Assembly (NCBI GenBank): GCA_002702705.1
Contig: PABH01000049.1
Coordinates: 62,001-126,000, forward strand
Origin: Anaerolineaceae bacterium
GTDB taxonomy: Bacteria > Chloroflexota > Anaerolineae > Anaerolineales > Anaerolineaceae
Direction: 5' to 3'
Length of the DNA stretch: 64,000 bases
Shown: in pieces, positions 4,007 through 40,577 of the stretch
Layout of the letters: each line of letters opens with the position of its first letter
How positions within the stretch are numbered: the first letter of the stretch is position 1
The notes under the pieces: model-generated
What the model was told of the DNA's origin: nothing
Seen by the model: the letters and a program-made list of their open reading frames with translations, nothing else
Databases searched by the model: none
Program-made: the position numbers and the translations under genes

Positions 4007-4108
4007 CTGGGTGGGGCCGGCGCGGCGGAAACCTTCGAACCCCGTCAGGTCCGAGAGGAAGCAGCGGTAAGGAGGTCCTTCTGGGTGCCGCCGGGAACCC
4101 TGCCCGGA
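4007..4108 (+). ncRNA. ffs: Bacterial small SRP RNA (4.5S RNA)
   Basis: The conserved domain IV core is visible: GTCAGGTCC, a GAGA tetraloop, then GGAAGCAGC and GGTAAGG (4044-4072). It is flanked by long complementary arms, a 5' G-rich arm (about 4008-4027) and a 3' C-rich arm (about 4086-4107) ending in CCCTGCCC. This is the RNA that binds Ffh and directs membrane proteins to FtsY and the translocon. Ends are set by the pairing arms and may be off by a few bases. Confidence 0.95.
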
Positions 4109-29676: not shown

Positions 29677-29752
29677 GGGGGCGTGGTGTAGTGGCTAACA
29701 TGCGGCCCTGTCAAGGCCGAGATCGCGGGTTCGAACCCCGTCGCTCCCGCCA
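29677..29752 (+). tRNA. tRNA-Asp (GTC)
   Basis: A full cloverleaf of 76 nt: acceptor GGGGGCG pairs with CGCTCCC (one G-U), D arm present, anticodon GTC in CCTGTCAAG, T loop GGTTCGAACCCC-type, and a genome-encoded CCA end. GTC reads Asp codons. Confidence 0.97.
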
Positions 29753-36045: not shown

Positions 36046-38895
36046 ATGACACCAACCAAAGGAAATCAGCCAACCGCTGACCAACATGAATTAAGTGTTT
36101 TCTGGCATGCACTCAGTACGCAGGAAACGCTTGAATCATTACAAACTCATTTAGAGCACGGCTTAACCGATCAGGAAGTTGAACAGCGCCTTAAGAAGTA
36201 TGGCCCGAATCAGCTGGAAGAAAAAGAAGGCACTACGTTTATACAGATGGTGATAAGCCAGTTAAATAATTTTGTGGTCATCTTGTTAATCGTAGCGGCT
36301 ATTGTTTCTGCCATATTGGGAGAATGGATTGATGCTTCCGCCATTATTGCGATTGTGGTTCTAAATACGGTGATGGGTGTTGTACAGGAAAATCGCGCTG
36401 AGCAAGCATTGGCGGCATTAAAAAAGCTGGCAGCGCCGGATGCCCAGGTATTACGTAATGGAAGGCGTGTGTCTGTTCCTTCTCCGCAGTTGGTGCCCGG
36501 TGATATTGTTTTTCTGGAAGCAGGTTATTTCATTCCCGCGGATGTGCGCCTTTTGGAAGCTATTAATTTACGGGTAGAAGAAGCCGCCTTAACCGGAGAA
36601 TCCGTGCCTGTGCAAAAAAATGCAGGTGAGATTTTCAGCGCGGAAGCTTCTTTGGGTGATCGCAAAAACACGGCTTTTATGGGTACCACCGTTTCTTATG
36701 GACGTGGGCGGGGCGCAGTAGTTTCTACCGGCATGCGTACTCAATTGGGGATGATCGCCAGTATGCTGCAATCCGTTGAAGATGAACAGACCCCCTTACA
36801 GCGTCGTCTCGATCAATTAGGAAAAACCTTGGGTTGGGCTGCTTTAATCGTATGTGGTATCGTGCTGCTGGCTGGTTTGCTGCAGGGTGGTGATTTGCTG
36901 GAAATGTTTATGGTATCAGTTAGCCTGGCGATTGCAGCAGTGCCGGAAGGACTGCCTGCAATTGTAACCATCAGTTTGGCATTGGGTATGCGAGAGATGA
37001 TTAATCGCCATGCCCTAATCCGAAAACTTTCTTCCGTGGAAACTTTAGGTTCTGCGACCGTGATTTGTTCTGACAAAACTGGTACCCTGACCCAAAATGA
37101 AATGACGGTGACACGCATCTGGTCTGATGGGCAATTTGTGGAAGTTACGGGTCGAGGATACAAACCGGAAGGGGAATTCCTGGTTGATGAAAAACCGGTT
37201 GATTTACAAACCTACCAATCCATATTAACAACACTTTGGGTAAGTGCGTTAAATAATGATGCTTATTTGGAAAAAACCGAACTGGATGGTGAACCATCCG
37301 GTTATCGTATCATCGGTGACCCTACCGAAGGGGCTTTGGTGGTGGCCGCGGCGAAAGCAGGCGCGCATCAAAGTGTTTTAAATGAAGATTATCCACGTGC
37401 TCAGGAGATTCCATTTGATTCGGTGCGTAAGCGGATGGTTACCATTCATGCCATTGAAGATCCACATCGTGAGGATGCTTCACCATTTGTAGATCAATCG
37501 GAACGTCAACATTATGTGGTGGCGGTAAAAGGTGCGCCGGATATTGTGTTGAATCTCTGTTCACAATACCAGACGATCGATGATAAACAACAACCATTAA
37601 CCGAGGAAAAGAAAAAAGAGATCCTTGCTGCCAACGATGAAATGACCGGCGGTGCCCTGCGGGTTTTGGGTGTGGCGTATCATGTGGTGAATGTCCTTCC
37701 TGATCAAGTAAATGGGAATTTATTGGAAAAAGATCTCATATTTGTTGGCCTGATGGGCATGATTGATCCGGCCCGTAAAGAAGTGCAGCCGGCTTTAGAG
37801 CTTGGGCGAGGTGCTGGTATTCGCACCATTATGATCACCGGAGATTACCCCAACACAGCCCGTGCTATTGCGCAGGATATTCAATTATTACAGCCAGGTC
37901 ATCAGGTTTTGACGGGCGCCAACCTGAACGATATGAGCGATGAAGCACTGCAAGAAGCGGTTAAAACGACCGATGTGTTTGCCCGTGTTTCCCCGGAACA
38001 TAAAATGCGGATCGTGGATGCCTTACGGGCCAATGATGAAGTAGTGGCAATGACAGGGGATGGTGTCAATGATGCACCGGCCATTAAACGTGCTGATATC
38101 GGTGTGGCAATGGGTATTACCGGTACCGATGTTGCCAAAGAAACAGCGGATATGGTGCTGACGGACGATAATTATGCCAGTATTGTGGCCGCGGTTGAGC
38201 AAGGCCGTATTATTTATTCGAATATCCGGAAATTTGTGTATTATCTTATTTCCTGTAATATGGCCGAGATCATGATTATCTTTTTGGCGACTGCTTTTGG
38301 ACGCTTTTTATATCCTGCGGCTGGCGGTGAGGTTTTATCACCCTTAACGCCCATCCAGCTATTATTGTTAAACCTGGTGACGGATGGAGCCCCTGCCCTG
38401 GCATTGGGCACCGAAAAAGGCGATCCTGATATTATGGATCAGAAACCACGCCCCACAAAAGAACCCATTATTAACCGCTATATGTTATCCGGTGTTGTTA
38501 TTCAAACCATTGCAATTACCGCGGTGACCCTGGTCGCATACGGCATCGGGTTAAGGCATGATCGTGTTTTTGCCGAAACGATGGCTTTTATCACCCTGTC
38601 TGCATCCGAACTGCTGCGGGCTTACACCGCCCGGTCGGAACGGTACCCGGTATTAAAAATTGGCTTGTTTAATAATAAGTGGATGAATTACGCTGTAATA
38701 TCCTCATTAGCCTTGTTATTGCTGGTAATTTATTTGCCGTTCTTTAACACCATATTTAATACGGTACCTTTGGGCTGGACGGAATGGAAGTTGATTTTGC
38801 CCTTATTAATTGTGCCTTCCATTGCGGCAGAAATTGCGAAGTACTTTGTCACCTGGCGGCAAAACCAGGCCAAATCAACAAAAGTGGTTTCGTAA
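36046..38895 (+). CDS. Calcium-type P-type ATPase (P2A-like)
   Basis: A 949-residue cation pump. Order: N-terminal cation-ATPase domain (HALSTQETLESLQTHLEHGLT), actuator motif LTGESVPV, transmembrane helix 4 with AAVPEGLPAIVTISLALG (the calcium-site PEGLP), phosphorylation site Asp343 in CSDKTGTLTQNE, a nucleotide-binding domain with KGAPDIVLNLC, hinge MTGDGVNDAPAIKRADIGVAMG, helices M5-M6 with NLVTDGAPALALG, and a C-terminal helical domain. It resembles bacterial PacL/LMCA1-like pumps that export Ca2+ or related ions. GAGGAG precedes the ATG by seven bases. A large hairpin and the riboswitch array follow. Confidence 0.93.
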   Translation: MTPTKGNQPTADQHELSVFWHALSTQETLESLQTHLEHGLTDQEVEQRLKKYGPNQLEEKEGTTFIQMVISQLNNFVVILLIVAAIVSAILGEWIDASAIIAIVVLNTVMGVVQENRAEQALAALKKLAAPDAQVLRNGRRVSVPSPQLVPGDIVFLEAGYFIPADVRLLEAINLRVEEAALTGESVPVQKNAGEIFSAEASLGDRKNTAFMGTTVSYGRGRGAVVSTGMRTQLGMIASMLQSVEDEQTPLQRRLDQLGKTLGWAALIVCGIVLLAGLLQGGDLLEMFMVSVSLAIAAVPEGLPAIVTISLALGMREMINRHALIRKLSSVETLGSATVICSDKTGTLTQNEMTVTRIWSDGQFVEVTGRGYKPEGEFLVDEKPVDLQTYQSILTTLWVSALNNDAYLEKTELDGEPSGYRIIGDPTEGALVVAAAKAGAHQSVLNEDYPRAQEIPFDSVRKRMVTIHAIEDPHREDASPFVDQSERQHYVVAVKGAPDIVLNLCSQYQTIDDKQQPLTEEKKKEILAANDEMTGGALRVLGVAYHVVNVLPDQVNGNLLEKDLIFVGLMGMIDPARKEVQPALELGRGAGIRTIMITGDYPNTARAIAQDIQLLQPGHQVLTGANLNDMSDEALQEAVKTTDVFARVSPEHKMRIVDALRANDEVVAMTGDGVNDAPAIKRADIGVAMGITGTDVAKETADMVLTDDNYASIVAAVEQGRIIYSNIRKFVYYLISCNMAEIMIIFLATAFGRFLYPAAGGEVLSPLTPIQLLLLNLVTDGAPALALGTEKGDPDIMDQKPRPTKEPIINRYMLSGVVIQTIAITAVTLVAYGIGLRHDRVFAETMAFITLSASELLRAYTARSERYPVLKIGLFNNKWMNYAVISSLALLLLVIYLPFFNTIFNTVPLGWTEWKLILPLLIVPSIAAEIAKYFVTWRQNQAKSTKVVS

Positions 38896-38920: not shown

Positions 38921-38971
38921 CCTCTCCCTGGTTTAAAAACCTATGGAAAGCGCTTTTAAACCAGGGAGGGG
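38921..38971 (+). terminator. Large hairpin after the P-type ATPase
   Basis: CCTCTCCCTGGTTTAAAA and TTTTAAACCAGGGAGGGG form an 18-bp stem with a 15-base loop; a T-run comes 14 bases later. It is likely the 3' end of the ATPase message. Confidence 0.7.
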
Positions 38972-39005: not shown

Positions 39006-39034
39006 TTGAATTTGTATAGACAAGTTGTTATACT
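39006..39034 (+). promoter_or_regulatory. Promoter of the riboswitch array
   Basis: TTGAAT (39006-39011), 17 bp, TATACT (39029-39034). The expected start at about 39041 is at the base of the first aptamer, so no coding sequence precedes it. The same CTATTGAATT and GTTATACT blocks recur at 40193-40223. Confidence 0.75.
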
Positions 39035-39036
39035 GT

Positions 39037-39127
39037 TTCAAAGGCAAACTTATCGAAAGGTAAGGACGCAAAGCCACAGGATCTAAGGTCTATTGGTTTA
39101 GACTAGGATAGCCGTGCTGCCTTTGAA
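39037..39127 (+). ncRNA. c-di-GMP-I (GEMM) riboswitch aptamer, module 1
   Basis: The module has the GEMM-I hallmarks in order: GGCAAAC, a GAAA tetraloop hairpin, GGACGCAAAGCC, CAGGATCTAA, a variable hairpin (GGTCTA ... TAGACT), then AGGATAGCC and GTGCTGCC. P1 is closed by CAAAGGCA with TGCCTTTG (8 bp). Known aptamers of this class bind cyclic di-GMP and usually precede motility, adhesion or secreted-protein genes. Here no such gene follows on this strand. Confidence 0.85.
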
Positions 39128-39210
39128 AAGGCGAAACTGAGCGAAAGCCAGTGGTGCAAAGCCAGAGGATCTAACGCCCTGATCAGGCAAGGATAACCGT
39201 GCTGCCCGTT
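39126..39210 (+). ncRNA. c-di-GMP-I (GEMM) riboswitch aptamer, module 2
   Basis: It follows module 1 without a gap: GGCGAAACT, GAAA loop, GGTGCAAAGCC, AGAGGATCTAA, a short hairpin (CGCC/GGC), AAGGATAACC and GTGCTGCC. There are changes at GGACGC (GGTGC) and at AGCC (AACC), so ligand binding may be altered. Confidence 0.75.
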
Positions 39211-39300
39211 TAGAACGAGTATGTTTCCGTTCCGGAGAGAAACCCGGACAAAAACCAAAGATCTGTTGTCTACTAATGACAAAGGTTCGAGGAACGCTCT
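39211..39300 (+). ncRNA. Degenerate riboswitch-like module 3
   Basis: GAGAGAAACCCGGACAAAAA, then CCAAAGATCTG, hairpin TTGTC-TACTAAT-GACAA and AGGTT align with the P3, GATCTAA and P2 parts of modules 1-2, but the GCAAAGCC and GCTGCC core is lost. GTTCC (39229-39233) and GGAAC (39291-39295) may close it. Probably a decayed copy or a linker. Confidence 0.45.
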
Positions 39301-39308
39301 AAAAGGAA

Positions 39309-39375
39309 AGGGCAAACTTATCGAAAGGTAAGGACGCAAAGCCAGGGGTCTGCCGGATAGCCCAGCTGCCAAAGA
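39309..39375 (+). ncRNA. c-di-GMP-I (GEMM) riboswitch-like aptamer, module 4 (shortened)
   Basis: The first 34 bases from GGCAAAC to AAAGCCA (39310-39343) are identical to module 1 (39042-39075). The variable hairpin is cut to GGGGTCTGCCGGATAGCCC, and GCTGCC closes the core. The terminator begins 10 bases later, so this module could control termination. Confidence 0.7.
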
Positions 39376-39380
39376 AGAAT

Positions 39381-39428
39381 AAATATCGCCCCTCTTCTCT
39401 TTTTAATGAAGGAGGGGCGATTTATTTT
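39381..39428. terminator. Terminator after the riboswitch array
   Basis: ATCGCCCCTC (39384-39393) and GAGGGGCGAT (39412-39421) form a strong stem followed by TTATTTTAATAT. AT-rich flanks on the other side also allow it to end the minus-strand lipoprotein gene. Confidence 0.85.
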
Positions 39429-39446: not shown

Positions 39447-40073
39447 TTATTCCGTTATCATCATTTCAGACATATTGTCTTGAAATTCAGCCAGAATTTG
39501 ATCGAGTGTCTCCTGAGTCATACCGGCTTGCTGCGCGCTTTTAACCATATTTCCTAGATAGTTTTCTACGTGAAGGCATTGGGTTTCTAGATCTTTTAAA
39601 GCCTCTGCTGCTGTTATCTCCTGTTCGGACCACTGATCTACCACAGCCAACAATGCGGCCAGGCGATTTTGTAAACCGTCTTTGTATCGTGTTACGATCG
39701 GATCATTGGGATTCCATTCCGCGAAGGCTGCTTTCACGCCGCTTAATAGGAGGCCTTCCGTAAACAACTCACCATACGCGGCTTCATCGGTGATTAAGTC
39801 TGCTTGCTGGCGGCTGGCTGTATCGGTCATCATTGGACAAACCGCATACATGATCAAGCCACTCGAAAGAGCAGGCTGCCAAATATTCTTTAATTCTTCC
39901 TGCAAATTGATATTAATTGCCGTTGGTGATGGAACAATTGGTTCATCCAAGTTGTTTTCGGTAGGTGTAGGGATTTCTGATGGATTCGTGGGTGCAGCTT
40001 GATAAGTAACTGGTTGGCAAGCTGCCAAGATCAACACGAAAAATATAATTAGTCGATTACGTAAATGTTTCAT
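39447..40073 (-). CDS. Unknown lipoprotein
   Basis: A 208-residue lipoprotein with lipobox LILAAC (Cys19) and a Pro/Thr-rich linker to about residue 50. The mature domain is helical and rich in Ala, Glu and Gln (for example RYKDGLQNRLAALLAVVDQW), with two Cys (CPMM and CLHV). I do not recognise a family. The ATG at 40073 gives a normal signal peptide; an ATG at 40091 would add six residues. It converges on the orphan riboswitch array and shares its terminator. Confidence 0.7.
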   Translation of the reverse strand: MKHLRNRLIIFFVLILAACQPVTYQAAPTNPSEIPTPTENNLDEPIVPSPTAININLQEELKNIWQPALSSGLIMYAVCPMMTDTASRQQADLITDEAAYGELFTEGLLLSGVKAAFAEWNPNDPIVTRYKDGLQNRLAALLAVVDQWSEQEITAAEALKDLETQCLHVENYLGNMVKSAQQAGMTQETLDQILAEFQDNMSEMMITE

Positions 40074-40194
40074 TGGGTCAGTTAACTCCATTGTTTTTTA
40101 TTTATGTCTGGAACTACTAATTGTACCAATAAAAATATCATTATTTTCCATCTTCCTATTTTGTTTATTGTTGACAAACTAGATGGATGTACTA

Positions 40195-40326: not shown

Positions 40327-40386
40327 TTCTAAAGAATTTAGTTAAGTTAACCTGAATTTTGGATATTTATCCAATTTACTGGAGAG

Positions 40387-40535
40387 TCATTGCGAGCGAA
40401 GCGAAGCAATCTAATGGCCTTGTGGCGAGCGTACCCTTGCTTTCTAAAAAGCTAGAGAAAAGGATACCCAAATGGGGCACACTGTTGCTTCGACCCCCAG
40501 GGGGGCAAGTCCCCTAATTGGGTCTCGCAATAACA
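40387..40535 (-). repeat. Dispersed GCTTCGCTCG repeat, copy 4
   Basis: It begins TCATTGCGAGCGAAGCGAAG, the widespread bacterial form, reverse to copies 1-3, and ends GGGTCTCGCAATAACAA. Confidence 0.65.
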
Positions 40536-40577
40536 ATAAAGAGCTTTAACAAACCTGATATTAAGTTAAAAAGGATA

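Follow-up and report, generated by a model that had tools for sequence, protein, structure and literature searches.

A candidate stand-alone RNA gene of fused c-di-GMP-I aptamers in the Anaerolineales

Positions 39006-39428 of the window, the 64,000-nt stretch of Anaerolineaceae DNA analyzed here, contain three c-di-GMP-I aptamers and one eroded domain, arranged head to tail between a promoter-like element and a strong intrinsic terminator (Table 1). Our preferred reading, tentative and at just under even confidence, is that the locus encodes an autonomous RNA of ~385 nt, that it belongs to an Anaerolineales family of fused-aptamer RNAs, and that this RNA most likely acts as a c-di-GMP buffer, as proposed for merRNA. 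Computation supports the identity of the modules, their fusion, covariation in the ring-type members of the family, the layout of promoter and terminator, the changing neighbors, and the lack of a visible termination platform.

Table 1. The window array and its surroundings
Feature	Position	Strand	Basis
Cation-transporting P-type ATPase gene, upstream neighbor	36046-38895	+	ORF call
Long inverted repeat behind the P-type ATPase gene	38921-38971	.	Sequence; only sub-threshold Rfam matches
Promoter-like element TTGAAT-17-TATACT, extended -10	39006-39034	+	Motif scan; comparison with relatives
Module 1, c-di-GMP-I aptamer	39033-39124	+	RF01051, 71.6 bits, E = 1.2e-13
Module 2, c-di-GMP-I aptamer, fused to module 1	39120-39209	+	RF01051, 44.2 bits
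Domain 3, eroded or replaced module	39209-39303	+	Sequence and comparison with relatives; variable there
Module 4, c-di-GMP-I aptamer, P1b shortened	39301-39373	+	RF01051, 69.3 bits; RF03167, 65.7 bits
Intrinsic terminator, hairpin and U-rich tail	39385-39428	+	Hairpin of -22.0 kcal/mol
Putative lipoprotein gene, convergent neighbor, outside the RNA	39447-40091	-	LAAC lipobox-like motif, by eye

Modules and boundaries of the window array

All three aptamer modules exceeded the RF01051 gathering cut-off of 35 bits, in line with an earlier note on this DNA that had likened modules 1, 2, and 4 to this class and had drawn their borders within some 8 bases of the RF01051 matches. The stretch of 34 identical nucleotides that the note had seen in modules 1 and 4 is present. 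Module 4 also matched RF03167 (c-di-GMP-I-GGC) at 39302-39374, above the cut-off of 59 bits, and this was the match retained by the scan. In module 1, an extended P1 pairs 39036-39044 with 39120-39128. Modules 1 and 2 have 5 nt in common, which leaves no room for an expression platform between them; module 2 is absent from the cmscan listing. The junction between the two (G000:C51:101068-101161) scored 64.9 bits with the junction model described below, of whose training set it was a part. Domain 3 had been called degenerate, a fair description: its region (39210-39300) gave no Rfam match at E values up to 10, its end arms (39209-39217 and 39295-39303) can pair with one mismatch, and an inner hairpin lies at 39266-39282. 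Folding of the 384-nt array RNA gave a z-score of -2.40, with 1 of 100 shuffled sequences folding equally well. The only plus-strand reading frames of at least 20 codons within this RNA are two nested ones of 36 and 21 codons.

The window genome (5.9 Mb in 74 contigs) has five RF01051 matches, three of which make up the array. The other two (L035, G000:C62; L038) are a spaced tandem, its aptamers separated by a terminator, and this tandem precedes a gene for a putative secreted protein.

The promoter element proposed earlier is present, and a similar one occurs at the equivalent place in relatives of the window array; as a motif alone it is at chance level, with four promoter-like motifs found in the region and 4.1 expected from shuffled sequences. 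The strong terminator noted earlier reaches pair probabilities of 0.93-1.0 when the RNA is folded. Being palindromic, it could at the same time serve the convergent gene, whose product had no Pfam match. On the 5′ side, the inverted repeat is, judging from its sequence, probably the terminator of the upstream ATPase gene, and it would insulate the array on that side. The next plus-strand gene starts at ~40578, i.e. 1.15 kb further on, and the adjoining gene is on the minus strand, as had been noted; the array of the window is thus not the leader of a same-strand gene. An intergenic, repeat-like stretch was seen at 40380-40545 (GTCATTGCGAGCGAAGCGAAGCAATC), with similar strings in L049 and L056. 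Elsewhere in the window, the bacterial small SRP RNA and a tRNA were found at 4009-4108 and 29677-29749, respectively.

A family of fused arrays with two architectures

RF01051 matches were found in 46 of 101 genomes (that of the window and 100 relatives), and several of these matches overlap head to tail. For such fusions, a junction covariance model was built from 33 training junctions, each running from the second half of one aptamer into the first half of its successor. Fused junctions known at that stage, most of them in the training set, scored 55.9-91.8 bits and all other matches at most 52.9 bits; junctions of G020 and G029, which lie outside the training set, scored 55.9-67.8 bits. 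A cut at 55 bits is not entirely clean: a true array (L179, genome G640) reached 52.7 bits and one junction of G512 52.6 bits, whereas L166 (G508, 55.8 bits) was recognized on inspection as a false match, namely one lone aptamer followed by a gene whose product resembles a secreted protein.

The model was run on class, order, and phylum samples of Chloroflexota. In the class sample, 12 of 396 genomes scored at least 55 bits, all from the order of the window. In the order sample (Anaerolineales), 80 of 400 genomes matched at E = 1e-7 or better, representing 29 of 130 genera, and the carriers fall into families f1, f8, f9, f12, and f14. Fused arrays are thus present in ~76 of the 400 order genomes (76 with at least 55 bits, minus G508, plus G640); 58 of these carriers were fetched and inspected and 18 count uninspected, and 21 of the 80 carriers at E = 1e-7 were left unfetched. 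The phylum sample yielded matches in 13 of 400 genomes (12 at 55 bits or more), again all in Anaerolineales. In total, 60 loci were fetched as fused arrays, leaving 59 after removal of L166. When six relatives were scanned for an Rfam family covering the whole unit, only single-aptamer matches and tRNAs were returned. At L164, an inverted copy of the 3′ part of the array lies at the contig end and folds back on it, probably an assembly artefact.

Two architectures occur in the family: chains of the window type and rings of three aptamers. Eight window-type chains were seen (window, G005, G638, G667, G751, L203, L206, and L209). In these chains, a promoter block with TTCTATTGA is followed by modules 1 and 2, which are fused through CTGCCTTTGAAA (missing from L203), and then by a variable middle domain, the last module, and a GC-rich terminator. 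Behind the terminator of L209 lies a long tandem repeat of a GATTCGT unit. Identities were computed from six aligned arrays, with gap columns counted as mismatches and with L164 (palindromic contig end) and L203 left out. Between genomes, modules were 64-87% identical, promoter segments 49-77%, terminator segments 30-51%, and outer flanks 16-47%. For the window and G005, modules 1, 2, and 4 shared 78%, 87%, and 76% of positions, the promoter 49%, the middle domain 52%, the terminator segment 51%, and upstream and downstream flanks 36% each. Between two genera, the corresponding values were 69%, 79%, and 64% for the modules, 57% for the promoter, 37% for the middle domain, 30% for the terminator, and 27% and 16% for the flanks.

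These comparisons bear on the possibility that the array is a relic, i.e. the decaying remainder of a tandem riboswitch whose gene has been lost. The eroded module 3, the shortened P1b of module 4, and L203, which apparently lacks part of modules 1 and 2, would fit such a history; we nevertheless regard it as very improbable, given that modules 1, 2, and 4, unlike the outer flanks, are conserved from one genus to the other, that promoter and terminator stay in place, and that arrays are spread over five families of the order. A target gene missing through misassembly was considered and rejected: comparison of the locus among relatives places different genes beside the array instead of one missing target.

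The rings pack three modules into 266-376 nt (mean 279 nt, 43 rings). This set was defined by two junctions and a length of 230-400 nt; L054, at 614 nt, fell outside it, as did L175 (198 nt), a ring of two modules. Thirty-nine of the 43 rings were aligned (L051, L056, L192, and L202 being left out by choice), and RNAalifold found, unprompted, an outer helix joining the 5′ and 3′ ends of the ring. In the consensus structure, 49 of 60 pairs had changed on both sides, and 95.0% of cells were paired, compared with 80.3 ± 0.4% in shuffles (none of 500 as high) and 21-45% when slid, without correction for kinship. The outer helix itself was 93.3% paired, with double changes in 6 of its 8 pairs in these 39 rings, likewise uncorrected for kinship.

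The outer helix was also assessed by permuting its arms. In 47 arrays (43 distinct arm pairs), 295 of 387 possible pairs formed, compared with 235.4 ± 7.3 in permutations (0 of 10,000 reached the observed value; kinship uncorrected). This set left out five window-type arrays as well as L053, L064, L173, L167, L171, L174, and L179. A test on 40 arrays that included the last four gave 240 of 342 pairs against 199.0 ± 7.3, again with 0 of 10,000 permutations. In these four arrays the first module was unrecognized and pairing was poor; the later set of 47 adds arrays with longer A-runs. The helix arm lies further upstream in L174 and L179, is weaker in L167, and was found to be lacking in L171. 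A best-helix search over wide flanks was too noisy to recover the helix. Upstream of the outer helix, 42 of 47 rings have a promoter-like element (match of 9/12 or better) that stops 3-9 nt short of the helix, in a scan that accepted a -10 ending 2-14 nt away; at random positions in the same loci, the count was 28 of 1880. Of the exceptions, L182, L187, and L188 reach a score of 8, and L054 and L175 lack the element. The outer helix is absent from the window-type arrays, and all structure statistics concern rings only; the two forms may therefore differ in function.

Expression platforms and neighboring genes

Fused arrays were compared with isolated c-di-GMP-I aptamers from the same group for signs of a switching terminator. 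Pairing of the aptamer 3′ strand with the 5′ arm of the terminator (antiterminator score of at least 14) was found at 21 of 28 isolated sites and in 0 of 48 fused arrays (Fisher test, p = 4e-13). The cut-off of 14 was set post hoc, and cut-offs from 12 to 18 keep the contrast (p = 1e-6 to 4e-13). Terminators were sought within 100 nt of fused arrays and up to 160 nt from isolated sites. With a wider terminator window, one fused array, L172, with an AT-rich ‘terminator’ at +90, scored 16; the narrower window behind the counts given here excludes it. The comparison omits L166, L053 and L064 (contig ends), L173 (3′ end unrecognized), and L054, L192, and L200 (end mis-set), which retained 53 fused arrays, five of them without a terminator according to the script. 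For the isolated class, 17 of 45 sites (some spaced pairs contributing both aptamers of a locus) were without a terminator by the same script. In the folded RNAs, predicted terminator formation had a median of 1.0 in the 48 fused arrays and 0.78 in the isolated class, for which 22 of the 28 terminator-bearing sites were used; two fused arrays (L171 and L187) had terminators predicted not to form. These tests covered platforms of the terminator type.

Neighboring genes change from array to array. Mechanical ORF calls, some of them maybe spurious, gave 29 protein clusters downstream, where 55 arrays had an ORF, and 33 upstream of 59 arrays (L166 excluded). The largest downstream cluster encodes RuvB (assigned by Pfam on one member) and comprises 21 arrays, all from family f12, in which ruvB lies 3′ of the array on the same strand, in 20 cases at a distance of 46-207 nt (e.g. 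L055-L063); within f12 alone, it is the next gene in 21 of 37 arrays with a called ORF. We also noted that L176, L177, L189, L193, L201, and L202 keep a common HlyD-like upstream cluster with another downstream ORF. Among window-type arrays, upstream genes vary as well. The next gene in G638, G751, L203, and L206 encodes a lactate/malate dehydrogenase (Pfam run on that of G751). In G005, the closest window-type relative, a gene for a PAS-GGDEF-EAL protein (Pfam; L037:5847-8279, minus) follows 147 nt behind the array on the same strand as the array. This protein is likely to be a c-di-GMP enzyme, and a link of the G005 array to c-di-GMP metabolism is possible.

Such neighbors raise the question of whether the arrays are tandem riboswitches acting in cis, with control of the next gene exerted through or beyond the terminator. 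The 21 ruvB loci, the GGDEF-EAL gene past the G005 terminator, and the dehydrogenase gene of the four window-type relatives speak for it, as does the orientation of the first downstream ORF (37 on the same strand and 14 opposite among 51 callable fused arrays); compared with isolated aptamers (39 and 5), this orientation gave p = 0.07 and is by itself weak evidence. Against a cis role stand the lack of antiterminator pairing at a score of 14 or more in all 48 fused arrays with a terminator, the variety of next genes, the convergent next gene in the window, and the window terminator arm, which has no better partner in the array than expected by chance (445 of 500 shuffles reach it). Overall, we consider cis control rather unlikely for the family, although such a role is possible for the arrays before ruvB in f12 and before the GGDEF-EAL gene in G005, and these count against a purely stand-alone one. 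The idea of a stand-alone unit, already raised in the earlier note, is supported for the window array, which is kept in relatives while both neighbors change, has a terminator without a better partner, and precedes no constant gene.

The same note had also suggested that the array might switch transcription running antisense to the lipoprotein gene. Antisense-acting riboswitches as described in passages of PMC9943018 are convergent with a gene, like the array of the window, whose convergent neighbor lies 74 nt past it, and c-di-GMP is given there as the class with the highest antisense tendency. Unlike those cases, the window array showed no sign of regulated read-through: a strong terminator separates it from the lipoprotein gene, and no ligand-dependent bypass of that terminator was found. 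The next ORF is convergent in only 14 of 51 arrays, and the lipoprotein gene clusters with no other array's downstream ORF. The suggestion is not supported by these results, and we give antisense control very little credence.

Function, relation to known RNAs and ligand identity

In passages of PMC3627812, merRNA of Bdellovibrio bacteriovorus is described as a stand-alone RNA of 445 nt with a c-di-GMP riboswitch and is proposed to be a c-di-GMP reservoir. According to these passages, it contains one riboswitch, its massive expression was measured, it is not conserved outside the Bdellovibrio lineage, and the model is called ‘yet to be validated’. The arrays resemble merRNA as putative stand-alone c-di-GMP RNAs with no conserved ORF behind them, and they differ in having several fused aptamers and in forming an order-wide Chloroflexota family.

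Under the buffer reading, transcription would begin at module 1, run through the three c-di-GMP-I aptamers and the eroded domain, and stop at the terminator independently of ligand. Each RNA would bind up to three cyclic dinucleotides and would thereby hold c-di-GMP as a buffer or reservoir, as proposed for merRNA. With the aptamers fused, each transcript would offer more sites for the ligand, and binding may be cooperative. Against this reading, a c-di-GMP sink of this kind would need very high expression.

The main rival to the buffer is a trans-acting regulatory RNA, in which the aptamers form a scaffold gated by c-di-GMP, so that a site for base-pairing or for protein binding is either exposed or hidden. 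We consider this a real possibility, clearly less probable than a buffer. The array is autonomous and conserved, and most carriers in the order sample have their junction matches in one place (G550, G593, G633, G670, and G755 have matches on a second contig). Moreover, linkers are conserved in the rings and their modules differ in identity, which exceeds the needs of a plain sink. On the other hand, domain 3, which would be a natural seed site, is poorly conserved in window-type arrays, with the 37% identity between genera given above.

Among multi-aptamer RNAs, the Bc3-5 type has three c-di-GMP-I aptamers in one RNA, as in the window array. There, every aptamer has a platform to itself and thus makes up a full riboswitch, and the RNA is set in the 5′UTR of cspABCDE, whereas the window array has fused modules without platforms of their own, a single terminator, and no constant target. 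Glycine tandem riboswitches have, like the array, several aptamers without separate platforms, but unlike it they end in one switching platform before a gene. Such glycine tandem aptamers are named in a passage of PMC4759541. A survey of tandem c-di-GMP-I riboswitches listed 347 doublets and 12 triplets; in its passages, these tandems are gene-control systems of the same aptamer class as the array, with multiple expression platforms (PMC9481103). The text of that survey does not contain the strings Anaerolin-, Chloroflex-, or Bdellovibrio, and its passages on tandems mention neither a stand-alone nor an outer-helix form. A Chloroflexi-1 motif from Chloroflexus aggregans appears in a listing within PMC2864571. 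Already known are c-di-GMP-I aptamers as a class, riboswitches in tandem and in triplet form (PMC9481103, PMC4759541), merRNA as a stand-alone RNA, and antisense-acting riboswitches (PMC9943018). In open-licence PMC literature, we found no description of stand-alone fused multi-aptamer c-di-GMP-I RNAs, of the outer helix, or of the distribution in Anaerolineales.

Riboswitch aptamers are nearly always gene leaders, and a family of aptamer-only RNA genes would break this pattern. If conserved throughout an order, it would show a second messenger being handled by a free RNA, as a buffer, reservoir, or trans regulator, and it would offer many natural copies in two architectures for testing the idea put forward for merRNA.

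As to the ligand, c-di-GMP is probably made in this organism, judging from 41 GGDEF matches in the window genome, and all three aptamer modules of the window carry G at the selectivity position. In the rings, the first base of the GGC element (columns 17, 118, and 220 of alignment A2, 39 rings), which we take to correspond to G20 of Vc2, is A in 25 of 39 first and 31 of 39 second modules, but G in 32 of 39 third modules. Passages of PMC9262584 and PMC9481103 give Vc2 G20 as the selectivity position. It is here that cGAMP-type aptamers, with A, and c-di-GMP-type aptamers, with G, can be told apart. The first two ring modules may therefore not prefer c-di-GMP, and the ligands may differ between modules. 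One could thus picture the Anaerolineales RNA as three distinct cyclic-dinucleotide aptamers fused into a wheel that is closed by the outer helix, reads a pair of signals or the ratio between them, and acts either in trans or as a buffer; we deem this unlikely. If true, it would make the RNA a signal-sensing RNA gene and not a riboswitch.

Module 2 of the window-type arrays (39126-39206 in the window) combines a constant GGTGCAAAGCC with either GATAACCG or GACAACCG, which differs from the class consensus. Perhaps these sequence departures alter binding. The exact pattern of module 2 was found in seven records, all from metagenome assemblies and all titled Chloroflexi or Anaerolineaceae, a family that the NCBI taxonomy places within Anaerolineales.
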